Source: Verrucomicrobiaceae bacterium
Lineage (GTDB): Bacteria > Verrucomicrobiota > Verrucomicrobiia > Verrucomicrobiales > Verrucomicrobiaceae
Assembly: GCA_016795365.1 (NCBI GenBank)
Contig: JAEUHN010000001.1
Span: forward strand, 62,001 to 126,000
Direction: 5' to 3'
DNA length: 64,000 nt
Under the pieces are notes generated by a model. It was not told the DNA's origin and did no database searches. It saw nothing but the letters and a program-made list of their open reading frames with translations. How positions within the stretch are numbered: position 1 is the stretch's first letter; each line of letters begins with the position of its first letter. The translations under genes and the position numbers were made by a program. This document shows positions 46,542 to 53,477 of this stretch, in pieces.

Positions 46542-49500
46542 TCACACCTTGGTGAGCTGCCTCTTCAACGAGAACTGAACAGCCGCGACGATGAGGATAA
46601 GGGAGAAGAGAATCACGAACGCGTTGAGGTTCACCGTCCTCACCTCGTAGGGCTCGATGTAAAAGCCAAGCCAGGACGCGTGGTTGCGTAGCTTCTCGGC
46701 ATCCGATGTCCACTTGATAAAAGGATACTGCCGGGTGGTGCCAAAGAACACATTCGGACTGCGCTCGCGACGATAGTCCTCGCGTTCCATTTCGGCTTTG
46801 GTGACGAGGTCGAGCACCTTCCGATTCACATAAAGCTCCTCCGCGCTCGTGGCTTTGCGTTCGCGTTGCACATAGTCGAGCATCTCCTGGGTGAGCGTGC
46901 CGCGAATAGCGTTCTCGCGGATGTTTTCGAGGTGCTTGGGCACATCGTCAGGCTCCTTTGACTGGAGCCCTGACACCACCGCCAAGGCTTGTTTGGTGAG
47001 GTCCAGCGTGTGGCGCTCCTGCTCGGTGAGTTCGCCGGGTTTTTCCACGATCTGCTGGATGCGGGACTCCAGCAGATCCTGGCTCCGCGTGAGCGGATTG
47101 AGGCGTGCCTGAGAGATGAGCATCGCTTCGTAACTCCACCGCAGGGGCATGAACTGACAGATGAAGGGCACCTTGAGCTTGCTAACCGAGTCTCCACCTT
47201 GCTCATCAGTCTTCACGAACCTGCTGATCGAATAGACGAGATCGAGGTTCTTGTTCATCTCCTCGTATTTGATCAGCGCACCGCCAAGGATGATCTGGGG
47301 AATGAGGAGCAGCGGGATGATATTGAGCGCCGTGCGGCTGTCGTGCACAAGACTGCTGATAAATAGCCCGAGAATAGCCCCTGTAAGCGCGGTGGCGAAC
47401 ATCCACCAGAGATGGATGAAGAACATGTCTCGCAGCTCGAGCATCCAGTTGCCAATGAGGAGGTAAATCACGCACTGCACGAGGGCGAAGGTGCCGAGCG
47501 CCATGACCTTGCCGGTGATGTAGTAAAAGGTGCGGAGATTGTGATTGCGCTCGCGGTTGAGCATAGCGCGATCACGGATGATCTCGTCCGCACTGTTGGT
47601 GAGACCGAGGAACATGGCCACCACCAGGCTCATGAAGAGATAGGTGGGGATATGGAAGGCGGAGGCGAAGGTGTAGTGGTCCTCTTCCGAGTAGCGCAGC
47701 ACCATGCTGATGAGCAGCGCGAGCATGGGTGCCTCGAGCAAGGTGGTGAGCAGGTTGGCGCGATTGCGAAGCTTGCTCAGAAAGGCGCGTCGGAGCATGG
47801 TGCCAAAGAGAATCGATTCCTCTCGGAAGCGATGCTTGGGCACCTGGGGGACCTTTTTCTGGCGGTTCTCCAGATCGCTCCGCCGGTCGTCGCGCGGAAT
47901 GTAGATGGCGGTGGTGGAAGGATTGTGATTGTCCGATGCCGCCATGCTTTGGAGCAGGCGGTGCGTCTGGTAGCGGTCGCGCCAGAAGTTCGGGGGGAAT
48001 CGGCGGGCATGCACGAGGTGCCCTTCAGCATTCTGTTCGAGAATAATGTCGCCACTAATGTCGCGCAGCGGGGTCTCCAGCACGTCGAAAACGAAGTCGG
48101 GCGTCACATTGCCCATGATCTCATTGCCGTCGGCCTGGCCGGTCTCCTCGTGATACACCCGCCAGAAGTATTCCAGCATCGCCTGCGGCGTGCCGAAGAA
48201 CGCCATCTTGCCACCCTTGTCGAGCAGCAGCGCCTTGTCGAACATCTGCAGCAATCGCATCGACGGCTGATGGATCGAGGCGAAGACGATCTTATTGCTG
48301 GCCAGTGAACGAATAATCTCCAGGACGTGCTCGCTGTCCTTCGATGACAGGCCGGAGGTCGGTTCATCAAAGAGGTAGATGTCCGAGATGCCGATCATGT
48401 CGAGACCGGCGTTGAGGCGCTTGCGTTCGCCACCGCTAAGAAATTTCTGCTGCGGTGTGCCAGCCAGGCGATTGCGCAGTTCGGCGAGGCCAAGTTCAGC
48501 CAGCTTGGCTTCGACGCGCTTGCGCCGGTCCTCAACGCGCAGGTGCGGACAACGAACCGCCACGGAAAAATCGAGGTTCTCCTGCACCTTGAGCAAGGGA
48601 TCAAAGGCATCCTCTTGAGGAATGTAGGCGATGTAGGGCTGGAGGCTCTCGAGGTGCTCGTAGAGCGGGAGTCCATTCATGAGCACTTCTCCGCCCTTGG
48701 GCTGGAGCTGCCCGCCAAGCACTCGAAGGAGTGTGCTCTTGCCACAGCCGCTGGGACCCATGACGCAGATCATCTCCCCGCGCCGCGCACTGAGGCTGAT
48801 GCCATCGAGAGCGGTGTCGCGTTGATCAAAACGGTGCACCAGTTCGCGCACGTCGATCTGGCGAACGGTGTTGCGCTCTTCCTCAATGATGCGGTCGGCA
48901 AAATGACAGCGCAGGAACTGTCCGTCCCCGAGAGTGATGGTGTCGCCGTCTTTTAGCGGCATGACGTCGTTCACCACCGTGGAGCCCACATACACGGGCC
49001 TTGATCGGCGTAGCACCTCGACGGTGCCAGTTTTTTCCGCGTAATCGCACTCGATGCGGAGGAGAACTTCGCCCTCGGTCTCCTCGGACAGCAGGATGTC
49101 CCCTTCTTCCAGGAGGTCAGGATTGTTGGAGACGAGGTAGGTATTGCGACTGCCCTCCAGCCTAAACTGGCCGCCAAACTCGCGTGCCCGACGGCGAAGG
49201 TCGAGCAGGGAAATCTCGACCTCTCCGTGCGCCACGATCGCGTCTTCAATGGAGGCCTCCACGACCGTGCCTGCGGTGAGCGACTTGCCATTGAGCTTGG
49301 CGTCCGTGTCTCGCAGGGCCTCGACGGTCACACTGAGGCCAAAGCTCACGCGCAGGTTCGTGCCACGCGCTCGCTGCGGTGCGATCTCTGCATCGCCCTC
49401 GTCGGTCAAGGTGAGGTAGAGCTGCGTGCCGGTCAGTGTCTTCTTGGCATTGAAGTAAGAAACGAGGTCGTTGTAATCCAGGGCCACGTCCTCGAGCACC

Positions 49501-50228
49501 ACGCGCTCACCAGGGTAAAGGCGACTGAAATCGCCCGGCGGCTGGCGACGGCTGCGCACCAGGATCGGCACTTTGCCTGTGTTCTTCAGCAGGATCAGGT
49601 TTTGGTAACGATAGGCCGTCACCACGCAGTCTGCGGAAAGGGAGCGCAGCAGGACATCGCAAGGGTTCGCCCCGGCGATGCGCAGGGTGTCCAGAGGCTG
49701 GGCGCCCTTAGGATGGCTGGCATCCTCACTCCCATCAGGCTCCCCCGCTTTGAGCTGATAGACAATATCAATGGCCTGGGCTGCGATGCCCAGGTTGGTC
49801 ATGAACAGGTAGAACTCGACCATCTGCCGCCGGTTCTGAATCGTCCGGTTGATCAAAAGGTAGAGCTGCACACCGAGCAAAATCTTCTGCTCCATCGTCA
49901 GTGTGCGGCTGAGTTCCTTGGCTCTGAGCGTGAGGTCCTGAGTCTTCTGCAGAGCCTCGAAGTAGAGGCGGCGAAGCTCGGCGTAGATGGCGTCCGGATA
50001 ATCGTAGCGAAGATAGCCGAGTGAGGAATCGATCTCGTCCTCCTCCACGTCCCCATCCAGCTTGCTAAAACCGGCGAACACCTCGATAAGGACCGGCAGG
50101 ATGCTGTTGCCCGAAGTCGATGGGCCGGCCGGGCGCTGCCCTGGCAACCATCGCCGCCACCACGATCCGCCACCCGACGATGACTCCGCCTTGCGAAGCT
50201 GGGAGTTTTCGGAATTGGGCTGGCTCAT
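46542..50228 (-). CDS. ABCG-type ABC exporter with N-terminal TerB-like and FHA-like regions
   Basis: 1228 residues from the ATG at 50228. Residues about 40-150 resemble the TerB-like helical domain (VFAGFSKLDGDVEEDEID), and 250-470 contain beta-rich segments with the FHA-like end VMPLKDGDTITLGDGQFL. Then an ATP-binding domain with Walker A GPSGCGKST (about 489), signature LSGGERKRLN (about 596) and DEPTSGL (about 619), and an ABCG-style hydrophobic permease half (about 860-1220) with six predicted membrane segments. This FHA-ABC-permease order recalls mycobacterial Rv1747. The substrate is unknown; the FHA part suggests control by Ser/Thr phosphorylation. Single gene, divergent from the PEP-CTERM gene. 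Confidence 0.85.
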   Translation of the reverse strand: MSQPNSENSQLRKAESSSGGGSWWRRWLPGQRPAGPSTSGNSILPVLIEVFAGFSKLDGDVEEDEIDSSLGYLRYDYPDAIYAELRRLYFEALQKTQDLTLRAKELSRTLTMEQKILLGVQLYLLINRTIQNRRQMVEFYLFMTNLGIAAQAIDIVYQLKAGEPDGSEDASHPKGAQPLDTLRIAGANPCDVLLRSLSADCVVTAYRYQNLILLKNTGKVPILVRSRRQPPGDFSRLYPGERVVLEDVALDYNDLVSYFNAKKTLTGTQLYLTLTDEGDAEIAPQRARGTNLRVSFGLSVTVEALRDTDAKLNGKSLTAGTVVEASIEDAIVAHGEVEISLLDLRRRAREFGGQFRLEGSRNTYLVSNNPDLLEEGDILLSEETEGEVLLRIECDYAEKTGTVEVLRRSRPVYVGSTVVNDVMPLKDGDTITLGDGQFLRCHFADRIIEEERNTVRQIDVRELVHRFDQRDTALDGISLSARRGEMICVMGPSGCGKSTLLRVLGGQLQPKGGEVLMNGLPLYEHLESLQPYIAYIPQEDAFDPLLKVQENLDFSVAVRCPHLRVEDRRKRVEAKLAELGLAELRNRLAGTPQQKFLSGGERKRLNAGLDMIGISDIYLFDEPTSGLSSKDSEHVLEIIRSLASNKIVFASIHQPSMRLLQMFDKALLLDKGGKMAFFGTPQAMLEYFWRVYHEETGQADGNEIMGNVTPDFVFDVLETPLRDISGDIILEQNAEGHLVHARRFPPNFWRDRYQTHRLLQSMAASDNHNPSTTAIYIPRDDRRSDLENRQKKVPQVPKHRFREESILFGTMLRRAFLSKLRNRANLLTTLLEAPMLALLISMVLRYSEEDHYTFASAFHIPTYLFMSLVVAMFLGLTNSADEIIRDRAMLNRERNHNLRTFYYITGKVMALGTFALVQCVIYLLIGNWMLELRDMFFIHLWWMFATALTGAILGLFISSLVHDSRTALNIIPLLLIPQIILGGALIKYEEMNKNLDLVYSISRFVKTDEQGGDSVSKLKVPFICQFMPLRWSYEAMLISQARLNPLTRSQDLLESRIQQIVEKPGELTEQERHTLDLTKQALAVVSGLQSKEPDDVPKHLENIRENAIRGTLTQEMLDYVQRERKATSAEELYVNRKVLDLVTKAEMEREDYRRERSPNVFFGTTRQYPFIKWTSDAEKLRNHASWLGFYIEPYEVRTVNLNAFVILFSLILIVAAVQFSLKRQLTKV

Positions 50229-50341
50229 GAAAAATGGATGGGGCGGGAGGCGCAACTATGGCAGGCGGGCGGGCGGTGACAACCGGCGACCCATCGAAGA
50301 TAATGCCGTCCTGGTCAATTAACCAAGGCTCGACAAATGTA

Positions 50342-50369
50342 TTGACGTCAGAAATGCAACCCCTAGCAT
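50342..50369 (+). promoter_or_regulatory. Weak sigma-70-like promoter of the PEP-CTERM gene
   Basis: TTGACG (50342-50347), a 16-base spacer and TAGCAT (50364-50369), 25 bases before the start codon at 50394. The -10 element is only a moderate match and the spacer is one base short. Confidence 0.25.
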
Positions 50370-50393
50370 CGGCGATCCAATCCATCCGCTCAT

Positions 50394-51011
50394 ATGAAGG
50401 TTCTGGCACTCGCACTTCTGCTTCTGACCCCTGGTCTGGCCACCGCAGCCACCGGCATGTTCGGCAGCTACATTCAGATCAACACGGGGACCAATGTGGT
50501 TTATGATCTGCAGTCGTATGGCACGACCAACAATCCCGACTTCAACGGCCTGGATTTTGGCGACTACACAACCAACTTCAACAGCCTGAGCATCACCAAC
50601 ACCTCGGGCCTGACTTTCAAGAATATCGGGAATGGTGACAATGTTACCGGCGTGGAACTTCAGTATCGCGTTTACAAGGTGGGCAGCACTCCGGGATCAT
50701 TTTCCACCATGGCTCTGAACTTCGGTTCCAACTCCACCGCCACTGATCTGGGCGGAAACACATTCACAGGCAGCGGTGATCAGGAATGGCGGGGCCTGAG
50801 TGGCGGCAGCATTGATCTGCTCTCACTCGCCAATGCTGGCGATGGCGACTACAAGGTCGAAGTGTTTCTCCGTGCCTTCACCAATCTGGGCGATCGCTAC
50901 AGCAACAATGGTGGCTCGAACTTCATTGCGGTGTTCACCATTCCCGAACCGAGCCGCGCCATGTTCCTGATCATGGGCCTGATGGTTCCGTTGTTGAGAA
51001 GACGTCGTTAG
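50394..51011 (+). CDS. PEP-CTERM-sorted secreted protein
   Basis: 205 residues: Sec leader (MKVLALALLLLTPGLATAA), a beta-rich Gly/Asn/Thr-rich middle (SNSTATDLGGNTFTGSGDQ), and a C-terminal sorting tail of IPEPSRA, a transmembrane helix (MFLIMGLMVPLL) and an RRRR end. This is the PEP-CTERM signal recognised by exosortase, which cleaves or anchors proteins destined for the envelope or the exopolysaccharide matrix. Exosortase and export genes are not in the window. Followed by a hairpin terminator. The middle matches no domain I know; it may be a surface structural protein. Confidence 0.85.
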   Translation: MKVLALALLLLTPGLATAATGMFGSYIQINTGTNVVYDLQSYGTTNNPDFNGLDFGDYTTNFNSLSITNTSGLTFKNIGNGDNVTGVELQYRVYKVGSTPGSFSTMALNFGSNSTATDLGGNTFTGSGDQEWRGLSGGSIDLLSLANAGDGDYKVEVFLRAFTNLGDRYSNNGGSNFIAVFTIPEPSRAMFLIMGLMVPLLRRRR

Positions 51012-51046
51012 GGCCTCCGAGGCATTGGATTCGTTAGCAACTTTTG

Positions 51047-51080
51047 AAACCCTGCTTCGAAAGGAGTCAGGGTTTTTATT
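51047..51080 (+). terminator. Rho-independent terminator after the PEP-CTERM gene
   Basis: AAACCCTG (51047-51054) pairs with CAGGGTTT (51068-51075), with a 13-base loop and a T-rich run (TTTTTATT) in and behind the right arm. Confidence 0.75.
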
Positions 51081-51086
51081 TGGCTG

Positions 51087-51224
51087 ATGCTCATGGTCGC
51101 TGCGATTCCCGAGCCTGGCACTGCACTGCTGATAGCGATGCTCGCCACCGCCTGGGGACAACGGCGGCAAAGGAACAAAAACCTCCTAAGATTGCTGAAT
51201 CTGACTCGTTCAACGAAGTCATGA
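51087..51224 (+). pseudogene. Orphan PEP-CTERM tail fragment (45 codons)
   Basis: A short open frame from the ATG at 51087 gives MLMVAAIPEPGTALLIAM and then LATAWGQRRQRNK: a textbook PEP-CTERM signal (PEP motif, hydrophobic helix, Arg-rich end) with no signal peptide and no passenger. The frame is closed by a TGA 13 codons upstream of the ATG. It ends in a TGA that overlaps the thioredoxin ATG (ATGA). It is most simply the tail of a PEP-CTERM gene whose front was deleted; a small functional protein, or a translational-coupling leader for the thioredoxin, cannot be excluded. Confidence 0.6.
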
Positions 51225-51679
51225 ACACGCTCCATCTGATCCTCGCAGGCTGTTTGATTGTTTCATCTTCATGCTTCGCCGGTAGCAAGGCAGGATGGGA
51301 CGACGACTACGAAAAGACGTTGGCAAAAGCCAAGACCGAAGGTCGATCCGTCCTGCTCGATTTCACCGGCTCTGACTGGTGCGGTTGGTGTATCAAGCTG
51401 GACAACGAAGTGTTCACGAAGCCTGCCTTCAAACGCTTTGCCAAGGAGCGCTTGCTGCTGGTGGAACTCGATTACCCTCAAGGTAAACGCCTGTCCCGAA
51501 AGACTCAGGAGCAGAACGACGAGCTCAAGACCAAGTATGGCGTCAGCGGTTTTCCGACGATTGTTCTCCTCAGTCCTGAGGGCAAGGAAGTGAAACGATG
51601 GAGTGGATACAGCGCCAAGTTTTTTGACGAACTAAAAGCCGCCGTGCCAGCGGAGCCAAAAGCGACTGCGGCCAAGTAA
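51221..51679 (+). CDS. Secreted thioredoxin-like disulfide reductase
   Basis: 152 residues: leader MNTLHLILAGCLIVSSSCFA, then a thioredoxin fold with WCGWC (C54, C57), LVELDYPQGK and the cis-Pro region VSGFPTIVLL near residue 117. Proteins of this type act in the periplasm on cysteines of exported proteins (for example cytochrome maturation). Its ATG overlaps the TGA of the PEP-CTERM fragment by four bases, a coupling arrangement. It ends four bases before the stop of the convergent GT-C-like gene. Start chosen because it precedes a leader; a longer open frame reaches 51044 but has none. Confidence 0.88.
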   Translation: MNTLHLILAGCLIVSSSCFAGSKAGWDDDYEKTLAKAKTEGRSVLLDFTGSDWCGWCIKLDNEVFTKPAFKRFAKERLLLVELDYPQGKRLSRKTQEQNDELKTKYGVSGFPTIVLLSPEGKEVKRWSGYSAKFFDELKAAVPAEPKATAAK

Positions 51680-51683
51680 GCCC

Positions 51684-53477
51684 TCAGGGCTTTTGAGCTT
51701 CCTTCAGAGCGGTCCAGCGATCCCGGTCTGAGAAGAAGTTCGATGGGAACACCGGCTTGCCATCCGGCATCAGCGCCCAACCCAAAGGCAGCATGTGCGG
51801 GTAGTCGCGAAGGCGTTCGACCGTTTGCGCTAAATCAACGCCAAGGCCACGAACCGGCCCGCGGGCAATCAGGTCCACCCACTCGGCATACGCGCCCGTA
51901 AACTGGGTGGCCAGGGTCTCGCCCTTCATACATAGGGAGGTAACCACAATGCCAGCCACCGGGTGCTTTTGCTTCTTGGCGAGATCGCGCAGGCGATCGA
52001 ACTGCTCACGATTCTTTGGCAGCCACATGGTGGGGCGGTCCGCATACCAAGCCACAGCCCAAGGCGCATCCGAGACCAGCGTTTCATCGTCCTCGACCAT
52101 CTCCGTCAGACGCGCCAGAGATGCTGCCCGGTAGTCCGGCTGCATGAGCTGGTTCTTCAAAAAAAGCCCAAGCCTCAAGTCACTGGAGAGCCCCACGATC
52201 ATGGGCCAGCCACCAATGACCAGAGCAAGAATAGCAAACCCATATCGCGTCCACACGCCGCCGTTGCCAGGGTTGAAACGCGCCCATAGAACGGCCAGCC
52301 CAGCCAAGCCCAGCACCGTGAGCGAAGGAACCATGATAGCGTGAAGCTGCCGGTCATCCTGGGGTCCGTCGGGCAGACCAAGCAGCGACATGCCCAAGAT
52401 CGAGCACCCCCACATGATGGCGATTCCCCATCGGAAGCGGTTCACATCGTCGCGACGGAAACGGTGGAGCAACGAGATGAAAAACAGCACGGCTGGCACC
52501 ACTAGCAAGACATGGCTGAAAATGTCTTCGATCTGACCACTGAAGTGCGCATTCACCCGCCGCATCAGCGCCGCCAGCACCAGTGGTGGAGTCGCACTCT
52601 CGTAATCGCGCATCTGCACAGAATCGGGATACGGCACGAGGATGCTTTGCAACGATGCCTTGGCAGTGCCGAGAGTCTCGCCACAAATCATCTGATTGCG
52701 TGCCAGCCAAGCTGCTGTGGCAAGTATTGGAATCAGGATCACCAGCACCAGCGTGCCCCGATTCCTCGGCAAGAGCACAGCCACTGAAATGATTACGCCC
52801 AGCACCAGCCAGGCAGCCATCCACTGCGTCATCACCATCGCCGTGCATGACAGCGCCAGGAGAAAAGGCATCATCCCCGCAGGCTCGCCCGACTCGGCCC
52901 TTTGCATCAGAATCATGAGGCACCAGGCGCTGGCAGTGGCACAAAAAAGAAGCAGCGCGTGATGGCCTCCGCTGGTCACCATCATCCACAACGGTCGGCT
53001 GAGCACCAGCGCGAGGACGGCAAATCCTGCCAGCGTGCGATCAAAAAGTCGCCTTGCGATGCCGTGCATGACCACCAGGGTGAGCAAGAACCAGCACGTG
53101 CTCATGCAAGCGATCACTCGATCCATCCGGTAGATCATGCCTGTGGTCTCGAATGGCCACCAGGATTCCAGCGCCTTGAAGACGGGTGCCCAAAGGACCG
53201 GCTGCAAAGGTGGATGCGACGTGTCTGGAAGACTCGCCACCAAGGCCTCGCGCTGGTGGTCTTGCATCATCCGCAGCGACGAAGGGCGCACCATCTGGGT
53301 GCTGAAGCCGTGGCCACGCGCGAGCTCTCGGGCAATCTGAGCCTGATCCATCGCAGCCGGGCTAGCGAGTCCTCGAAACGTAATGAAGACATGCAAGAAC
53401 GCCAGAGATGCGACGAACACCCAGAGAGCGAGCCTCAGCACCGGTTTGATCTGATCGGCAGGGTTGTTGGAATTCAT
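51684..53477 (-). CDS. Polytopic membrane protein, GT-C glycosyltransferase-like
   Basis: 597 residues with roughly ten hydrophobic segments, starting with LALWVFVASLAFLHVFITF and a following loop of FRGLASPAAMDQAQIARELARG, in which the acidic D of AMDQ sits where GT-C enzymes (ArnT/PMT, GT39) have their catalytic Asp. The C-terminal third is soluble-like, with a VSDAPWAVAWYADRPTMWLP segment often seen in GT39-like proteins. These enzymes transfer a sugar from a lipid carrier at the outer face of the inner membrane. Donor and acceptor unknown. Convergent with the thioredoxin gene and divergent from the Arg/Gly-rich gene. Confidence 0.68.
   Translation of the reverse strand: MNSNNPADQIKPVLRLALWVFVASLAFLHVFITFRGLASPAAMDQAQIARELARGHGFSTQMVRPSSLRMMQDHQREALVASLPDTSHPPLQPVLWAPVFKALESWWPFETTGMIYRMDRVIACMSTCWFLLTLVVMHGIARRLFDRTLAGFAVLALVLSRPLWMMVTSGGHHALLLFCATASAWCLMILMQRAESGEPAGMMPFLLALSCTAMVMTQWMAAWLVLGVIISVAVLLPRNRGTLVLVILIPILATAAWLARNQMICGETLGTAKASLQSILVPYPDSVQMRDYESATPPLVLAALMRRVNAHFSGQIEDIFSHVLLVVPAVLFFISLLHRFRRDDVNRFRWGIAIMWGCSILGMSLLGLPDGPQDDRQLHAIMVPSLTVLGLAGLAVLWARFNPGNGGVWTRYGFAILALVIGGWPMIVGLSSDLRLGLFLKNQLMQPDYRAASLARLTEMVEDDETLVSDAPWAVAWYADRPTMWLPKNREQFDRLRDLAKKQKHPVAGIVVTSLCMKGETLATQFTGAYAEWVDLIARGPVRGLGVDLAQTVERLRDYPHMLPLGWALMPDGKPVFPSNFFSDRDRWTALKEAQKP

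Follow-up and report, generated by a model that had tools for sequence, protein, structure and literature searches.

A PEP-CTERM tail without its protein ahead of a thioredoxin-like gene in a Verrucomicrobiaceae bacterium: a probable gene remnant

PEP-CTERM proteins, which carry a signal peptide at their N-terminus (PMC3237569), usually have their sorting signal at the extreme C-terminus. In this PEP-CTERM/exosortase system (TIGR02595, TIGR02602), the signal is made of a PEP motif, a hydrophobic stretch and a basic cluster. The locus described here lies in a 64,000-nucleotide stretch of DNA (the window, whose coordinates are used throughout) from a Verrucomicrobiaceae bacterium with a 6.7 Mb genome (GCA_016795365.1, contig JAEUHN010000001.1, positions 62,001 to 126,000). 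A plus-strand open frame of 45 codons and a TGA (51087–51224, ATG start) bears an orphan PEP-CTERM tail there and ends on the start codon of a thioredoxin-like gene. We think it likely that this frame is a fossil, the 3' remainder of a PEP-CTERM gene that formerly stood before the thioredoxin gene and was lost.

The tail has the three elements of the sorting signal and its genome encodes an exosortase, but there is no protein in front, no signal peptide and 18 residues come after the last RR pair. Compared with bacterial gene remnants as generally known, the frame is alike in consisting of a 3' end only, in having apparently lost its stop and in being absent from the syntenic place in a sister species; it differs in that neither a parent gene nor another piece of one was found. 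The last system to consider is translational coupling by termination–reinitiation, which has been described in archaea and bacteria and in which coupled pairs are known to overlap by ATGA (PMC6728339). Here, the 4-base stop/start overlap is the same, but the upstream frame follows a terminator-like hairpin, encodes a tail only and is not conserved in the sister genome. Judging from the opening lines of abstracts, detached PEP-CTERM tails are not the subject of any of the papers listed on PEP-CTERM and pseudogenes, and a separate literature search on PEP-CTERM and small open reading frames found nothing.

An orphan tail behind a terminator-like hairpin

The stretch at 51105–51176 is a real tail sequence. 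Residues 7–30 of the frame match the TIGR02595 PEP_CTERM model at 18.7 bits for a cut-off of 16 (E 0.0022 in a single-protein search), the last 15 codons being extra, and Pfam PF07589 gives the 45-codon frame 18.9 bits, short of its cut-off of 20.7. In a six-frame scan of the whole genome with TIGR02595, the orphan tail scores 17.9 bits with an E of only 0.063, so that the model score by itself would not rule out chance. A profile specific to this genome, built from 27 other tails, gives it 22.5 bits, while dinucleotide shuffling of the 209-base spacer in which it lies yields 10.3 at best in 5000 rounds, never attaining half of the observed score. The tail also stands apart by its frame: among the places listed genome-wide, 27 are above the TIGR02595 cut-off, 26 of them in frames of at least 172 codons and the orphan tail in one of 58, and the tail matches listed for relatives (four genomes, E up to ~0.009) are all in frames of at least 118 codons. 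Since this genome has an exosortase (TIGR02602, 127.9 bits for a cut-off of 105.55) together with these 27 above-cut-off tails, parent genes of such a kind are available.

A first-pass annotation, made from the letters and their open reading frames, had described a 45-codon frame encoding only a PEP-CTERM tail, overlapping the thioredoxin start by ATGA and placed just after a PEP-CTERM gene and its terminator. This description is confirmed: the TGA at 51222–51224 overlaps the ATG at 51221–51223, and the 209 bases between the two plus-strand genes contain a terminator-like hairpin with its U-run (−17.3 kcal/mol) and, from 9 bases further on, the frame minus its last four bases. The features are as follows.

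46542–50255, minus strand: ABC-type protein gene (labelled from reading its translation)
50394–51011, plus strand: intact PEP-CTERM-type protein gene, 205 aa, with a signal peptide-like start and an IPEPS...RRRR end
51046–51077, plus strand: terminator-like hairpin and U-run 3' of the PEP-CTERM gene, −17.3 kcal/mol, z −3.5
51087–51224, plus strand: open frame with the orphan PEP-CTERM tail, 45 codons, probably untranslated
51105–51176, plus strand: PEP-CTERM match proper (TIGR02595; G000:C6:113105-113176 in the genome scan), codons 7–30, IPEPGTALLIAMLATAWGQRRQRN
51177–51224, plus strand: read-on beyond the usual tail stop, closing with the TGA that overlaps the thioredoxin ATG
51221–51679, plus strand: thioredoxin-like gene (Thioredoxin_7/Thioredoxin_2, CGWC), 152 aa, with a signal peptide-like start
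51684–53477, minus strand: membrane protein gene (labelled from reading its translation)

The end of a lost gene

At the 3' end of the frame, the 18 residues that follow the last RR pair compare with 0–11 in 27 other tails of the genome, so the orphan tail does not occupy the usual extreme C-terminal position, and it has apparently lost its own stop codon. The GC content by codon position is 0.69/0.55/0.69 for 51087–51173 and 0.31/0.38/0.50 for 51174–51221 (29 and 16 codons, hence rough values), that is, the tail part shows coding-like third positions and the read-on less so, small numbers as these are. At its 5' end, only six residues precede the matched stretch, which leaves no N-terminal signal peptide, and an in-frame stop at the foot of the hairpin (51045–51047) closes the frame upstream and thereby bars a longer protein. 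Lacking a signal peptide, the product, even if made, would not qualify as an ordinary exosortase substrate.

The scenario that we favour is that (i) a second PEP-CTERM gene once stood ahead of the thioredoxin gene, (ii) its body was deleted, the break falling just past the terminator-like hairpin behind the PEP-CTERM gene that survives, and (iii) the remaining gene end, without a stop of its own, would read on to the TGA that any gene starting with ATGA supplies in that frame. We infer the former full gene, the deletion and the lack of function. The frame would then be ordinary genomic debris, which is probably what it is, rather than a control device, and most likely it has no mechanism at all, being a gene end left behind by deletion. 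A gene remnant was one of the two readings proposed at the outset, and it is supported by a real tail with no body, an abnormal end and the lack of a counterpart at the syntenic place in another species of the genus.

That place was inspected in one same-genus genome (G001), which retains all four genes in the same order, the PEP-CTERM gene ortholog being 87% identical and in the same place, and the thioredoxin ortholog 77% identical. At the DNA level, the two genomes align at 81% over 49663–51009 and at 78% over 51273–53176 (outer ends set by the locus), and nothing aligns between. The spacer of G001 is 74 bases shorter (135 bases versus 209) and contains no PEP-CTERM tail and nothing alignable to it. 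Where the window has its hairpin, G001 can form one too, again with a U-run behind it, although the sequence of the stem differs (56 bases, −23.2 kcal/mol). Its spacer also holds a frame of 32 codons that is unrelated, starts with TTG and closes in ATGA at the thioredoxin start. The first-pass annotation had suggested syntenic loci as the place to look for an intact gene; this comparison confirms that the tail is without counterpart in G001, but it brought no intact parent, since neither tail nor gene is there.

In another genome (G063, L191:349-1128), a tail likewise stands apart from its body: there, a 217-codon open frame is followed by two in-frame stops and then by a detached PEP-CTERM tail above the TIGR02595 cut-off. 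This was one of four other short-frame tail matches fetched among those listed; two of the others end at contig edges (L192, L194) and the last (L193) has no match to the genome-specific profile.

Several points weigh against a fossil. No piece of a gene body was seen upstream of the tail at the locus, no intact parent gene was found there with G001 as the comparison within the genus, and a genome-wide search for a second copy of the tail DNA gave nothing better than a 25-base match (E 0.13). The stretch without alignment to G001 extends into the thioredoxin gene, of which it covers the first 52 bases, hence it changes fast and the absence of the tail in G001 is weaker evidence than apparent; besides, the search covered a single further genome of the genus, which makes a loss in G001 indistinguishable from a gain in the window. 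Finally, the frame has kept 45 codons free of stops, which is not required of a fossil, and no plus-strand promoter-like site is among those listed from the hairpin to the thioredoxin start, so that read-through transcription across the frame is possible.

Cassette, chance or coupling

How else could a tail have come to stand there? A free-standing PEP-CTERM cassette could have entered the spacer by insertion or recombination in the lineage of the window, moving the tail without its body, and the spacer's excess of 74 bases is indeed near the length of the match (72 bases). We consider this unlikely, since there is no donor (the closest of 28 other tails of the genome is 62% identical in DNA, within the range for pairs of other tails, the maximum of which is 67%) and no direct or inverted repeats of at least 12 bases in 50900–51400. 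A recent local copy of the neighbouring tail was rejected, the two being 50% identical in DNA, which ranks the neighbour 23 of 28 other tails when pairs of other tails average 54%. So was a repeat or mobile element carrying the tail, for which there is no second copy in the genome, no repeat of that length in the interval and nothing but short matches in family genomes. In the 68 that were searched, window aside, matches to the tail DNA span at most 56 aligned bases (E up to 0.1, with 12 or fewer candidates scored per genome), and among those listed of the 13 short-match loci inspected (four in the window's own genome, nine in the family), two are intact PEP-CTERM tails, one in the window's genome (L034) and one in G003 (L076). 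As a mobile cassette, the tail would represent an intermediate stage in the gain of sorting suffixes by proteins, but nothing here shows that it is one. Alternatively, the spacer may resemble a PEP-CTERM tail by chance, in line with the genome-wide E of 0.063, the PF07589 score below its own cut-off and the 2 of 14 control genomes that yield an above-cut-off match at E up to 10. This appears quite improbable to us in view of the distance between 22.5 bits and the best shuffle (10.3), of the other PEP-CTERM gene, of the same strand, that ends 93 bases ahead of the match, and of third positions that are more coding-like in the tail part than after it, on small numbers. If the fossil is what it seems, it carries a caution: a match to a sorting-signal model that covers a tail only can be a gene fossil.

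The other reading proposed at the outset, a deliberate leader coupling thioredoxin output to the PEP-CTERM system, finds no support. In such a scheme, the frame would be a translated leader, ribosomes stopping at its TGA would restart at the overlapping ATG, and thioredoxin output would depend on leader translation by termination–reinitiation. The overlapping ATGA at 51221–51224 has the right geometry, the lack of a listed promoter-like site on the plus strand of the spacer means that the frame may share the thioredoxin transcript, Shine-Dalgarno pairing at the thioredoxin start itself is slight (−0.3 kcal/mol), and G001 too has an open frame closing in ATGA at this start. However, the overlap proves little where the downstream gene starts with ATGA, as is the case for 13 of the 30 long frames surveyed in the window (first ATG taken as start), and it is independent of the tail, because the unrelated frame of G001 also ends so; the overlap comes with the start codon context. 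Weak Shine-Dalgarno pairing argues neither way, because it is common at long frames in the window. The frame begins 9 bases past the hairpin, so that most transcripts of the upstream gene should stop before reaching it; over the last 47 bases, a frame stays open in 40% of mononucleotide shuffles; and its spacer fails to align with that of G001, the one genome in which conservation of the upstream frame with the downstream gene was sought and is missing. With the hairpin in front, the ATGA provided by the gene start, an unrelated frame in G001 and tails before 3 of 107 thioredoxins, we regard coupling as highly improbable. A sequence-indifferent leader frame, coupling thioredoxin synthesis to read-through of the PEP-CTERM terminator throughout the genus, with a captured tail as leader in the window and an unrelated frame in the sister genome, strikes us as likewise highly improbable.

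A general link between thioredoxins and PEP-CTERM was also rejected. A same-strand tail lies within 1500 bases upstream at just three of 107 sequence-distinct thioredoxin loci (115 loci before grouping at 97% identity, 23 of them with less than 1500 bases of upstream flank; some may be paralogs), namely those of the window, of its G001 ortholog and of Luteolibacter marinus (L126). In the latter, a PEP-CTERM tail is found ~350 bases upstream of a related thioredoxin match. In the 3.6 kb fetched around seven remoter homologs of this PEP-CTERM gene (L080-L086), there is no thioredoxin match at E 1e-3, nor, by eye, a second PEP-CTERM gene among the listed frames of more than 100 codons.

Neighbouring genes and minor observations

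The intact gene at 50394–51011 has a translation that terminates in IPEPSRAMFLIMGLMVPLLRRRR, a tail that scores 13.1 bits with TIGR02595, below the cut-off. It is called PEP-CTERM because of its pattern of a PEP motif, a hydrophobic stretch and RRRR, and because its ortholog in G001 (L079) ends in VPEPSRAMFLALGMMMPLLRRRR. A simple terminator scan did not have the hairpin at ~51046–51077 among its listed sites, presumably because the stem is interrupted. For the thioredoxin, the closest named match (67%) comes from a Prosthecobacter metagenome assembly.

One relative (G007) has 115 PEP-CTERM matches at E up to 0.2, a large expansion, versus 16, 24 and 31 in three other genomes of the same search. 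In a rough survey of 30 long non-overlapping frames of the window, taking the first ATG as start, Shine-Dalgarno-like pairing upstream of the start is weaker than at background positions (−6 kcal/mol or below for 2 of 30 frames versus 20.6% of 2000 random places), as if this lineage were avoiding such sites. On the minus strand, 51175–51187 contains an exact AGGAGG closely followed by a TTG, inside a 75-codon minus-strand frame (51008–51235), which is probably due to chance.
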